64,000 nucleotides of DNA, from positions 62,001 through 126,000 of the forward strand of contig NZ_VCNK01000022.1 in NCBI RefSeq assembly GCF_006265095.1. Reading direction: 5' to 3'. The position numbers and the translations under genes were made by a program. Within the stretch, counting starts at the first letter, position 1. The number at the start of each line of letters is the position of its first letter. The stretch is from Phaeobacter sp. B1627 (GTDB taxonomy: Bacteria > Pseudomonadota > Alphaproteobacteria > Rhodobacterales > Rhodobacteraceae). The notes under the pieces are model-generated. The model was not told where the DNA came from, searched no databases, and worked only from the letters and a program-made list of their open reading frames with translations. This document shows positions 44,719 through 50,960 of the stretch, in pieces.

Positions 44719-45735
44719 TCAGGCAGACTTGCTGCTGGGGGGCGCCATCTCAGCTTCGAGATGAGGGGCAAAGAACATATGTCGCGCCCGCCCGGCCCGT
44801 TTGGCGCCATAAAGAGCCACATCCGCCTGATGGAGCAATTGCGCCGCATCCGGTTGCGACATTGACGACGACAGCGTTGTGCCGGCAGAGGCCGAGATCC
44901 TGCAGGTCTGAGCGCCATACATCATCGGGTCTTCCAACCTCTGGATCAGACGCTGGGCCAGTTCGCTCAGCCGCCCAATATCCATGAGACCCTCAAATAT
45001 GAGAACGAATTCATCGCCGCCAATTCGCGCCACGGTGTCTGATTTGCGGGTGCAATCCACCATGATCGCGGCCACCCGCTGCAACACCGCATCACCCGCG
45101 GCGTGGCCGTAGGTGTCATTGACCTGCTTGAAGAAATCCAGATCCACATGCATCAACGCGAAATCCCGACCGCTGTTGATCAGACGGTTCAGTACGTGAT
45201 CCATGGCGCGACGGTTCTTGAGGCCGGTCAGCGTGTCGGTAAAGGCCTGTTCTTCAGCGGCAATCTTCGCCCCTTGCAAGCGCAGGTTCAACTGACGCGA
45301 GGCCTCCATCGCGGCGGATTTGGCCTCGACCAGATACAGCATCTCGATGGTCAGATCCGTAGGCGAGAAATCCTGGCTGGTCAGGTCGAAATCGCGCACC
45401 GCATCCAGAACCGAAATACCGAAGGACAGATTGATAAAGCCGCCCTTACCGGCTGGCAGCGGCACCAGAACCCCCTTCATCCGGGTATGGGGCGCAGAGC
45501 GCAATTGGAAATGGAGCTTGCTGCCCGCTGTTTCCATCAGGTCATCGACGGTCTTGACCCAGCGCGGTCGCTGGAGGTCGAAGATATCGAAAAAGGACCG
45601 CCCCTCCCAGGAGTCCTCACCGCGGATTTTATCCAGCGTCGGACCATAGCTCTGCAGCTTGCCGTCAGTGTCGATGATGACATGCATCGGACAGATCTGA
45701 TCGGCCATCGCGCTGAGATCCTGCAAGCTCATCAT
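44719..45735 (-). CDS. diguanylate cyclase with HNOB-associated (HNOBA/PAS-like) domain
   Basis: This 338-residue protein has an N-terminal HNOBA-like sensory region (about residues 10-140: FDIFDLQRPRWV, MKGVLVPL, LTIEMLYLVEAKSAAME). A short signalling coil leads to a GGDEF domain (about 160-330). The active site is intact (ARIGGDEFVLIF, 239-243), as are the substrate residues FFKQVNDTYGHAAGD. An inhibitory RxxD site (RKSD, 230-233) is placed five residues before it. It makes cyclic di-GMP. Its ATG overlaps the H-NOX-like gene's stop (ATGA), matching the known pairing of H-NOX sensors with HNOBA-GGDEF partners. Confidence 0.9.
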   Translation of the reverse strand: MMSLQDLSAMADQICPMHVIIDTDGKLQSYGPTLDKIRGEDSWEGRSFFDIFDLQRPRWVKTVDDLMETAGSKLHFQLRSAPHTRMKGVLVPLPAGKGGFINLSFGISVLDAVRDFDLTSQDFSPTDLTIEMLYLVEAKSAAMEASRQLNLRLQGAKIAAEEQAFTDTLTGLKNRRAMDHVLNRLINSGRDFALMHVDLDFFKQVNDTYGHAAGDAVLQRVAAIMVDCTRKSDTVARIGGDEFVLIFEGLMDIGRLSELAQRLIQRLEDPMMYGAQTCRISASAGTTLSSSMSQPDAAQLLHQADVALYGAKRAGRARHMFFAPHLEAEMAPPSSKSA

Positions 45736-46319
45736 AGCGGATGCGCTCCGAGATCAAAGGTCCGGCCCTCGGAGAACTCGCTTTCGATCAGGGTGATGGA
45801 GATCACATCGGCGCCGTCCTGTGTGCCCGCGAGATCAAGGATCACCAGAGCACCATAATCATCGGCCATCGCCCTCAGCACACCGGTCATCACCTGAGCA
45901 TATCCAGGCACGCCCGGCTGGCACAAAAGTTCGAACTGGCCCGGGGCCTGCTCGATCAGCTCCAACCCCGGCAAATGCAGGTCGGACACGGCCAGCCGCG
46001 CCCGGTCGGGCAAGTCATCCAGTGAATGCAGAAACTCGACGTAGTTGACGCCGCCAAACCGCAGCAGACGGCGCAGGGCCTCCACTTGCGGATTGGACAC
46101 CAGAAAGGTCCCGACATCTTCCAGAATTTCGAGCAAAGGGCGTTCAAGGCTCCGTTCTACTGCGCGCATCATCCGCATTGATTGATCTTCAGGGTATACG
46201 AGCATCGCTTCGAACTCGGAAAATCCAAGTTCGCTTGCGTCCATGATCTCGTTCCAGCGCTTGCTCCCATATGTGCTGGTAACAAACGCTTGGACAGCCC
46301 TGTTGATCAAACCGTGCAT
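45732..46319 (-). CDS. H-NOX-like (heme NO-binding) domain protein, degenerate heme site
   Basis: This 195-residue stand-alone protein aligns with bacterial H-NOX sensors: MHGLINRAVQAFV at the start, EFLHSLDDLPDRARLAVSDL at the heme helix and GVLRAMADDYG near the propionate site. In typical members the heme helix reads LDNLH, with His as proximal ligand; here Pro104 takes that place. The conserved Tyr-x-Ser-x-Arg triad reads Cys133-x-Pro135-x-Val137. Heme or NO binding in the canonical way is therefore doubtful. His98 or His115 could substitute, but both are off-position. It is coupled to the diguanylate cyclase gene. Confidence 0.85.
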   Translation of the reverse strand: MHGLINRAVQAFVTSTYGSKRWNEIMDASELGFSEFEAMLVYPEDQSMRMMRAVERSLERPLLEILEDVGTFLVSNPQVEALRRLLRFGGVNYVEFLHSLDDLPDRARLAVSDLHLPGLELIEQAPGQFELLCQPGVPGYAQVMTGVLRAMADDYGALVILDLAGTQDGADVISITLIESEFSEGRTFDLGAHPL

Positions 46320-46462
46320 ACGGTCGTTCCCTATCTCACCTTTTAGCCAAAATTAAGTCCGCATGCTTAAGAAAGGCCGAATATCTAAGATTTCATATTC
46401 TTTCTGTCTTACCAACACGCCATGTTCCAGAGCTTGCTGGAAAAACGAATAATTCTGACGTC

Positions 46463-49559: not shown

Positions 49560-50960
49560 TTGCTAGGCACGATCCTGATCATAGATGGGGTCTCCATCAA
49601 TCGCATCATTTTGAAGGTGCAGCTGACGGCCGCCTGTTTCCAGGTGTTGCAGGCCGATACTGTTGCGGCCGCCGTCGCGCTGGCGTCCGGCAACCGTCCA
49701 GATCTTGTCCTGACCGCAATGTCCCTTCCCGACGGTGACGCCGCCGCCCTCAAGCAGGCCTTGGCCGCCATGCCACAGGTCGCGGATGTGCCGGTGATCG
49801 CGCTCAGTGCTCAGAATGACCGCGCCACCCGGATCAAGGCTCTGTCGGCCGGAATTGATGAAGTGTTGCCGCAACCCGTGGACGATATGATCCTTCAGGC
49901 CCGCATCCGCAGCCTGCTCCGCATGCGCTCCAAGAATGAAGATCTGCAACTGTGCGAAGACGGCGCGCACAGGTTGGCCATCCCCCTTGCCGCGGCGGCG
50001 CAGCGCATGTCGCGACCCGACGCCCGAATCGCACTTCTGTGTCACGATCTGCAAACCTCTCTCAAATGGAAACGCCGCCTGTCCTCGCAGGTCAGCGATG
50101 ATCTGCGCGCCTGTACCCTCGACGCCATCCAGGATCTGATGCGGTCTCCGGTGCCGGATGTCATCGTGATCGAATTGAACGAACTCTCCGCCGGCATGGC
50201 GCTGCGCCTTCTCGCTGATCTGCGGGCCCGGGCAAGCACCCGCGACTGCATTGTGGTCGCGGTGCCCAACCCGGCCGACGCCACCATTGCCGCCGAAGCT
50301 CTGGACCGCGGTGCACATGATGTGTTGCACTGCGGTTTTCAGGTCGAGGAACTGGCGCTGCGGATCAACATACAACTGGAGTACAGAGGCCGGGCCGAGC
50401 GCGCCCGGGACACATTGCGCAACGGGTTGCGCGCCGCGATGGAGGATCCGATGACGGGCCTTTATAACCGGCGCTACGCAAAACCCTTCCTCGACCGGGT
50501 CGTCTGTGACGCTGCGCTGTCGGGTCAGCAATATGCGGTGATGGTCGCAGATCTGGACCACTTCAAGCGGATCAACGATCAGTTCGGCCACCCGGTCGGC
50601 GACGCGGTCCTGATCGAAGCGGGCCGGCGGCTGCAGGCAGAGTTGCGCAATTGCGACATGCTGGCCCGTATCGGCGGCGAGGAATTCATGGTCGTCATGC
50701 CCGGCGTCTCGGCCGCAGAAGTCAGCAGCACCGCAACCCGGCTGTGCACGGCGATCAACACGGCCCCCTTCACCGTTTCGGGCGCCTCGACCCCGATCGA
50801 GGTCACCATCAGCATCGGCGCCGTCATCGGGGGGCCTCACGCGGGCGAGACCTCGGCTGATGGCCTGTTTGCAGCTGCGGACCGGGCGCTTTATGATGCC
50901 AAACGTGCCGGACGCAACCAAACCTCTCTCGGTGCCGCGTCACGTCCGGCAGCCGCCTGA
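49560..50960 (+). CDS. pleD: PleD-like diguanylate cyclase with degenerate receiver domains
   Basis: This 466-residue protein has the PleD layout: receiver 1 (1-125), receiver-like adaptor 2 (about 150-280) and GGDEF (about 295-455). The cyclase looks active (ARIGGEEFMVVM, 372-376; HFKRINDQFGHPVGD) with an RxxD inhibitory site (RNCD, 363-366). Receiver 1 lacks the phosphoacceptor: Ala53 replaces Asp, Gly10 replaces the second acidic-pocket Asp, and Gln105 replaces the conserved Lys. In receiver 2, Glu205 lies where an Asp would be. The start is TTG 49560 (ILIIDG), with GAAGGTG upstream. Adjacent DUF3572 supports the identity. Confidence 0.88.
   Translation: MLGTILIIDGVSINRIILKVQLTAACFQVLQADTVAAAVALASGNRPDLVLTAMSLPDGDAAALKQALAAMPQVADVPVIALSAQNDRATRIKALSAGIDEVLPQPVDDMILQARIRSLLRMRSKNEDLQLCEDGAHRLAIPLAAAAQRMSRPDARIALLCHDLQTSLKWKRRLSSQVSDDLRACTLDAIQDLMRSPVPDVIVIELNELSAGMALRLLADLRARASTRDCIVVAVPNPADATIAAEALDRGAHDVLHCGFQVEELALRINIQLEYRGRAERARDTLRNGLRAAMEDPMTGLYNRRYAKPFLDRVVCDAALSGQQYAVMVADLDHFKRINDQFGHPVGDAVLIEAGRRLQAELRNCDMLARIGGEEFMVVMPGVSAAEVSSTATRLCTAINTAPFTVSGASTPIEVTISIGAVIGGPHAGETSADGLFAAADRALYDAKRAGRNQTSLGAASRPAAA

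Follow-up and report, generated by a model that had tools for sequence, protein, structure and literature searches.

What does an H-NOX protein do for its partner cyclase once the residues that hold the heme are gone? The question arises from a 64,000-nucleotide stretch of Phaeobacter sp. B1627 DNA (here, the window), for which a preliminary description reported an H-NOX-like protein without the heme-ligating histidine or the Tyr-x-Ser-x-Arg motif, encoded in overlap with a diguanylate cyclase gene. We examined the protein, its relatives, and its gene neighborhood by sequence comparison and structure prediction.

The window protein combines a predicted H-NOX fold with the loss of the heme motifs

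Pfam detects an HNOB domain in the window protein at 73.1 bits, compared with a cut-off of 25.5, and the best solved relative found by phmmer is the Nostoc H-NOX Alr2278 (E 2.1e-12), consistent with the H-NOX-like fold originally described. In the phmmer alignment, His105 of Alr2278, which we take to be the heme ligand, pairs with Pro104 of the window protein, and Tyr134, Ser136, and Arg138, presumably the propionate-binding Tyr-x-Ser-x-Arg motif, pair with Cys133, Pro135, and Val137, which confirms the residue assignments of the preliminary description. The AlphaFold2 model, computed from a 62-row alignment in which two rows are canonical, has a mean pLDDT of 91.2, and its best Foldseek matches are Nostoc H-NOX structures with TM values of 0.80 to 0.82 of the query length. 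Also among the matches is 2kil, the structure of a His-to-Gly H-NOX mutant. With the HNOB domain and the predicted fold present and the proximal His and Tyr-x-Ser-x-Arg absent, the window protein is, as modeled, an H-NOX fold lacking all of the heme motifs; it is the only HNOB match in its own genome.

Table 1. Features of the H-NOX and cyclase genes, in window coordinates
Feature	Position	Strand	Basis
Group 5-type protein with H-NOX fold, 195 aa, without proximal His and Tyr-x-Ser-x-Arg	45732..46319	-	open ORF, Pfam, AlphaFold2, Foldseek
HNOBA-GGDEF diguanylate cyclase, 338 aa	44719..45735	-	Pfam; 4-base overlap with H-NOX gene
Pro104 codon (CCC), proximal heme His position	46008..46010	-	alignment to Alr2278; codon
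Cys133-Gln-Pro135-Gly-Val137, Tyr-x-Ser-x-Arg position	45909..45923	-	alignment
His2, only His or Cys kept in >70% of the family (133/146)	46314..46316	-	family alignment
C-terminal Gly-Arg-x-Phe-x-Leu tail, residues 185-190	45750..45767	-	family alignment; pLDDT about 55
Putative TTTNTTAA element upstream of the gene, position -55 relative to its start	46367..46374	-	position conserved in family

The Group 5 form predominates in the sampled family

We searched 148 genomes, 91 from the same family and 57 others, and found HNOB domains in 72 of them. When all matches were sorted by alignment, the type present in the window (Group 5) occurred in 68 of the 91 family genomes and in none of the 57 others, establishing the Rhodobacterales sub-clade without these residues that the preliminary description had proposed to look for. 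The canonical heme type was found in nine of the 91, six of which have both types, and in one of the 57. In the family as sampled, this type therefore outnumbers the heme form, 68 to nine genomes, and an annotation as "heme NO-binding protein" is not a sound basis for assuming a link from NO to c-di-GMP.

Ten of the 11 canonical rows carry His and Tyr-x-Ser-x-Arg, and one has Tyr-x-His-x-Arg; this last row is the second His-bearing H-NOX of genome G034 (L033). Neighbors of the four canonical H-NOX genes that were scanned encode a histidine kinase (L002, L006, and L009) or a GGDEF-EAL protein (L010). Across 385 genomes of the class, 11 match the family alignment. Four of these matches are strong and all come from the same family, and the seven weaker ones, one of them from the same family, all have His and Tyr-x-Ser-x-Arg. 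An H-NOX from a genome of the same family (L173, G341:C3:466601-467065) has the canonical His and Tyr-x-Ser-x-Arg beside an HNOBA-GGDEF-EAL enzyme, whose HNOBA score of 23.1 bits falls just below the cut-off of 23.4, and may offer a glimpse of an older arrangement. Viral contigs gave 30 pattern matches, none of which is a relative.

Within the genus, the gene is present in 16 of the 17 other genomes that the search included, the exception being a genome that is 67% complete, and residue 104 in the 16 is Pro in 15 and Ser in one. Since the gene and a residue other than His at position 104 recur across the genus, and the median dN/dS is 0.07 (nine genus sequences picked for equal length, 31 of 36 pairs kept at dS below 1.5, many of them with dS near 1, so that the ratio is rough), the absence of the heme motifs is not a product of chance or sequencing error.

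Residue 104 is variable, and no histidine or cysteine takes its place

Our family set of 148 members joins the 68 loci of a first, unranked set to 80 named members, which are the best 80 of at least 580 encoding stretches in a ranking by the D. shibae sequence, a choice that favors His-bearing rows. Some named and unnamed rows represent identical or near-identical genomes, and 142 of the 146 rows used for the tree differ. Position 104 in the 148 members is Pro in 97, His in 20, Ser in eight, Gln in five, Ala in four, Gly in four, Asn in three, Lys in two, Asp, Thr, Val, or Arg in one each, and a gap in one; in the first set, His occupies four and Pro 52 of 67 readable rows. Pro makes up 97 of the 127 non-His residues; this preference among the replacements means that residue 104 does not vary without restriction.

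The complete Tyr-x-Ser-x-Arg motif is missing from all 148 members, including those that keep His104, and Tyr133 occurs together with Arg137 only in row L080, which has Arg104. Positions 133, 135, and 137 vary widely, which speaks against the earlier suggestion of a new ligand, in the sense of a conserved contact at the old propionate end. The same variation, together with that at position 104, makes a single shared ligand touching these residues unlikely, and hence weighs on the idea that the old heme pocket binds another small molecule as its signal. That the fold is kept, that the gene is under purifying selection, and that a sensor-cyclase operon with no signal would be unusual are all in its favor; on balance, we think it improbable.

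In the 146-row alignment, no His or Cys stands in for the missing ligand. His98, which the preliminary description had allowed might occupy the ligand position under a better alignment, coexists with His104 in 12 of 146 relatives, fixing the register, and was rejected as a substitute as well (82 of 126 rows without His104 compared with 12 of 20 rows with it, Fisher p 0.80). Aromatic residues or His at position 135 (Trp, Phe, His, or Tyr) accompany His104 in 17 of 20 rows versus 25 of 126, an association that involves five independent pairs and is not significant. The commonest Cys, Cys133, is found in 89 rows, about 61% of the family (146-148 rows), and was set aside, as was a zinc site, for want of conservation; Cys reaches at least 30% of rows at positions 11 and 133 only. 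The proposal of another metal site likewise lacks support, as the ligand has no His or Cys substitute and His2, alone in exceeding 70%, is unlinked to His104. A metal or redox switch of the kind described for the heme-free Vibrio cholerae H-NOX could draw on Cys133, present in 89 of 148 sampled members; with even the most frequent Cys at about 61% of rows, and with Group 5 proteins reported to have no conserved Cys (PMC8738867), we hold such a switch to be very improbable.

Non-canonical heme binding, for instance through His2 or with no protein ligand, combined with NO sensing like that of the D. shibae protein, has more to recommend it. His2 is near-invariant (133 of 146 rows), the overall H-NOX shape is retained in the predicted fold and Pro117 and Gly70 are invariant, a list of heme NO sensors includes the D. 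shibae H-NOX, a member of this family (PMC8846402), and Kumar and Spiro conclude that NO signals by way of the Paracoccus denitrificans protein, which lacks the His (PMC5588039). Against it stand the absence of the full Tyr-x-Ser-x-Arg from 148 of 148 sampled members, the drift at positions 133, 135, and 137, and the fact that D. shibae itself has His104. Nor does His2 behave as a compensating ligand, being no commoner in rows without His104 (115 of 126) than in rows with it (18 of 20, p 0.69). We therefore regard this explanation as unlikely.

Conserved positions include a C-terminal tail

Identity reaches 97% or more at 31 positions of the 146-row alignment. Fourteen are identical in every row, with or without His104: W22, E67, G70, R83, R84, R87, R106, P117, G146, D153, G156, L158, F188, and L190. 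Judged from the alignment, the strong constraint on the window H-NOX lies away from the heme site. Gly70 is, we presume, the published hinge Gly of Group 5. The dN/dS of 0.07 already contradicts the view that the gene is decaying and is retained only through its linkage to the cyclase; this conservation and the deletion phenotype in P. denitrificans (PMC5588039) also speak against it. The lost heme motifs would fit decay, as would a relative (L077, genome G053) whose H-NOX gene is split across two overlapping frames, because the gene is broken or the sequence is faulty; we consider decay the least credible of the explanations weighed here.

The last two invariant residues belong to a Gly-Arg-x-Phe-x-Leu (GRxFxL) tail that is complete in 134 of 146 rows and is missing from all 11 canonical rows, from 10 of them by a gap. 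AlphaFold2 places it with low confidence in the lone H-NOX protein. Invariance despite low model confidence, together with absence from the canonical rows, suggests that the tail is a candidate docking peptide.

Upstream of the gene, the element TTTNTTAA occurs in 79 of 147 upstream stretches, compared with a mean of 1.6 in 20 mononucleotide shuffles, and 74 of its occurrences lie at -60 to -41 relative to H-NOX starts. By its letters it resembles the CtrA half-site as given in PMC7232146. A full CtrA-type TTAA-N7-TTAA was found in one of the 147 stretches (shuffled mean 0.32), with no enrichment.

His104 has changed repeatedly

To follow residue 104, we used a tree of 146 rows built from the cyclase and the H-NOX, with H-NOX columns near 97-107 and 131-139 removed. 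On this tree, a quick one with no mixture model and with SH-aLRT support only, His104 undergoes at least nine changes, of which at least five are forced by starred branches; the shuffled mean is 19. The repeated changes indicate that the remaining system tolerates the loss of His104. In a rooted model with 155 rows, the family ancestor has His with a probability of 0.61, and the log-likelihoods are -41.3 for the free model, -44.1 for gain only, and -47.5 for loss only. D. shibae DFL12 (L036), a genome in which 3 kb of one contig matches NC_009956.1 exactly, has His104 with Cys-x-Trp-x-Arg, and its nearest row on the tree is the Dinoroseobacter metagenome genome L080 with Arg104. The P. denitrificans H-NOX (L171) falls in the window clade, with Pro104 and the shared clade residues; it is 37.9% identical to the window protein (tblastn, E 7e-34). 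These mapped natural pairs with and without His make the question of which signal is sensed directly testable.

The partner cyclase is intact and almost always adjacent

The cyclase gene starts inside the stop of the H-NOX gene, with an overlap of four bases, and Pfam calls both HNOBA (33.1 bits, cut-off 23.4) and GGDEF in its product, in agreement with the gene overlap and partner originally described. The cyclase model (mean pLDDT 92.7) comprises an N-terminal mixed sheet, a long helix at residues 128-165, and the GGDEF part; Foldseek matches it best to diguanylate cyclases, headed by proteins of PAS-GGDEF-EAL architecture, and we read the N-terminal part of the model as PAS-like. Of 148 family loci, 147 carry an HNOBA-GGDEF cyclase gene on the H-NOX strand (67 of 68 in the first set and 80 of 80 in the named set), the exception, L079, being truncated by its contig end. 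All 146 partner cyclases in the alignment retain GG[DE]EF, and 145 of them the RxxD site. Continued function, for which the preliminary description had argued from the gene overlap, is thus supported.

Genes encoding HAD and MTTB proteins adjoin the window H-NOX gene, as they do in Phaeobacter sp. G2 (L172), in which the order cyclase-DUF3572-HAD-MTTB-H-NOX-cyclase of the window recurs on a 120-kb plasmid (CP104104.1). HAD and MTTB are among the neighbor families in a figure legend of PMC8738867, where the text available does not tie them to a group. The second diguanylate cyclase of the window (49560-50960, + strand) has receiver and GGDEF domains by Pfam and a GGEEF motif, and we read it as PleD-like. 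The starts of this gene and of the H-NOX gene are 3.2 kb apart, so that two cyclase genes bracket the H-NOX/MTTB/HAD/DUF3572 cluster.

A regulator for which heme may no longer be obligatory

Among the options raised in the preliminary description, a ligand-free regulator is the best. We see about an even chance that the window protein is a Group 5 H-NOX serving one HNOBA-GGDEF cyclase with heme no longer obligatory, probably as an inhibitor and perhaps through a lock resembling the NO-bound state. The H-NOX would control the cyclase by direct contact, through the conserved residues and the GRxFxL tail, independently of NO or heme; that the tail or the surface touches the cyclase we infer from conservation. 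Control would then come from the amount of H-NOX made or from another input.

In canonical H-NOX proteins, NO severs the bond between iron and His, and the protein signals in the form thus released, a state that His-to-Gly mutants mimic; a literature search for the His-to-Gly mutant by name gave no match. Because the NO-bound form is the His-released form, a His-less protein could, by analogy with these mutants, stay permanently NO-bound-like and cyclase-inhibiting.

Inhibition is the probable direction because of the genetics of P. denitrificans and the findings in D. shibae. Kumar and Spiro (2017), who noted that the H-NOX proteins of P. denitrificans and Rhodobacter sphaeroides lack the axial His, reported that deletion of hnoX gave less biofilm and no BapA, that deletion of dgcAB raised both, and that H-NOX might inhibit DgcA (PMC5588039), a model also found in PMC12582929. 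Islam et al. (2025) repeated the deletion phenotype, discussed DgcA inhibition, and found c-di-GMP to be below detection in P. denitrificans (PMC12582929). For the D. shibae H-NOX, detection of NO followed by inhibition of Dgc1 is reported (Bedrunka 2018, as cited in PMC7232146 and PMC8846402).

The same work also bears on the role of NO. Kumar and Spiro's own reading is that NO acts via H-NOX, alongside H-NOX-independent NO effects (PMC5588039), and this counts against an NO-independent role; Islam et al. present the P. denitrificans protein among NO-sensing H-NOX proteins, and the text of theirs that was searched contains no mention of the missing ligand (PMC12582929). The reported NO response of the D. 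shibae member, which has His104, indicates that some family members do respond to NO. More speculatively, and in our view less likely than not, gas sensing may be optional in a pair held together by conserved contacts and a GRxFxL docking tail, single changes at residue 104 may switch lineages between NO-responsive and NO-independent forms, and the His-less form may be a permanent NO-bound-like inhibitor. The literature examined, as far as its text was available, yielded no report that measured heme or cyclase activity in the case of a member lacking His.

Comparison with known systems

H-NOX proteins with the ligand missing are already in print (PMC5588039, PMC8738867). Lee-Lopez and Yukl (2022) describe Group 5 as having the proximal His in fewer than 10% of proteins, mostly replaced by Pro, with no conserved Cys, and ask what these proteins sense; the available part of their description makes no mention of Tyr-x-Ser-x-Arg, the tail, or His2 (PMC8738867). 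Our additions are the family-wide loss of Tyr-x-Ser-x-Arg, the lack of His compensation, the mapped His switches, the invariant Phe-x-Leu in the GRxFxL tail, the near-invariant His2, and the positioned upstream element. None of them turned up in the H-NOX literature available to us, in searches that had neither the tail nor the upstream element as a target and left out subscription journals.

In the soluble guanylate cyclase alpha-subunit, an H-NOX domain without heme is kept together with PAS/HNOBA, coiled-coil, and cyclase parts; there it is one domain within a subunit of an animal cyclase, whereas the window H-NOX is a separate protein. The canonical Nostoc Alr2278 shares the fold with the window protein but retains His and Tyr-x-Ser-x-Arg, which Legionella Hnox1/Lpg1057 and the Shewanella woodyi H-NOX, both listed in PMC8846402, also keep. 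Like the window protein, these canonical proteins are partners of signaling enzymes. The V. cholerae H-NOX responds free of heme through Cys oxidation at a zinc site, and its study found the proximal His conserved in all 598 sequences (PMC7108781); its type is marked by three conserved Cys plus a His/Gln, whereas in the window family no Cys other than those at positions 11 and 133 reaches 30% of rows. D. shibae H-NOX/Dgc1 is closer, belonging to the same clade and operon type and likewise lacking the full Tyr-x-Ser-x-Arg, but it has His104 and reported NO detection where the window protein has Pro104. Closest are Group 5 and P. denitrificans, which share with the window the H-NOX fold, the loss of His with Pro as the commonest replacement, the absence of a conserved Cys, and an adjacent GGDEF gene. 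HNOBA is called by Pfam in the window cyclase, whereas in the P. denitrificans cyclase it is found by phmmer only. From Group 5 the window protein shows no difference of kind; it is another member.
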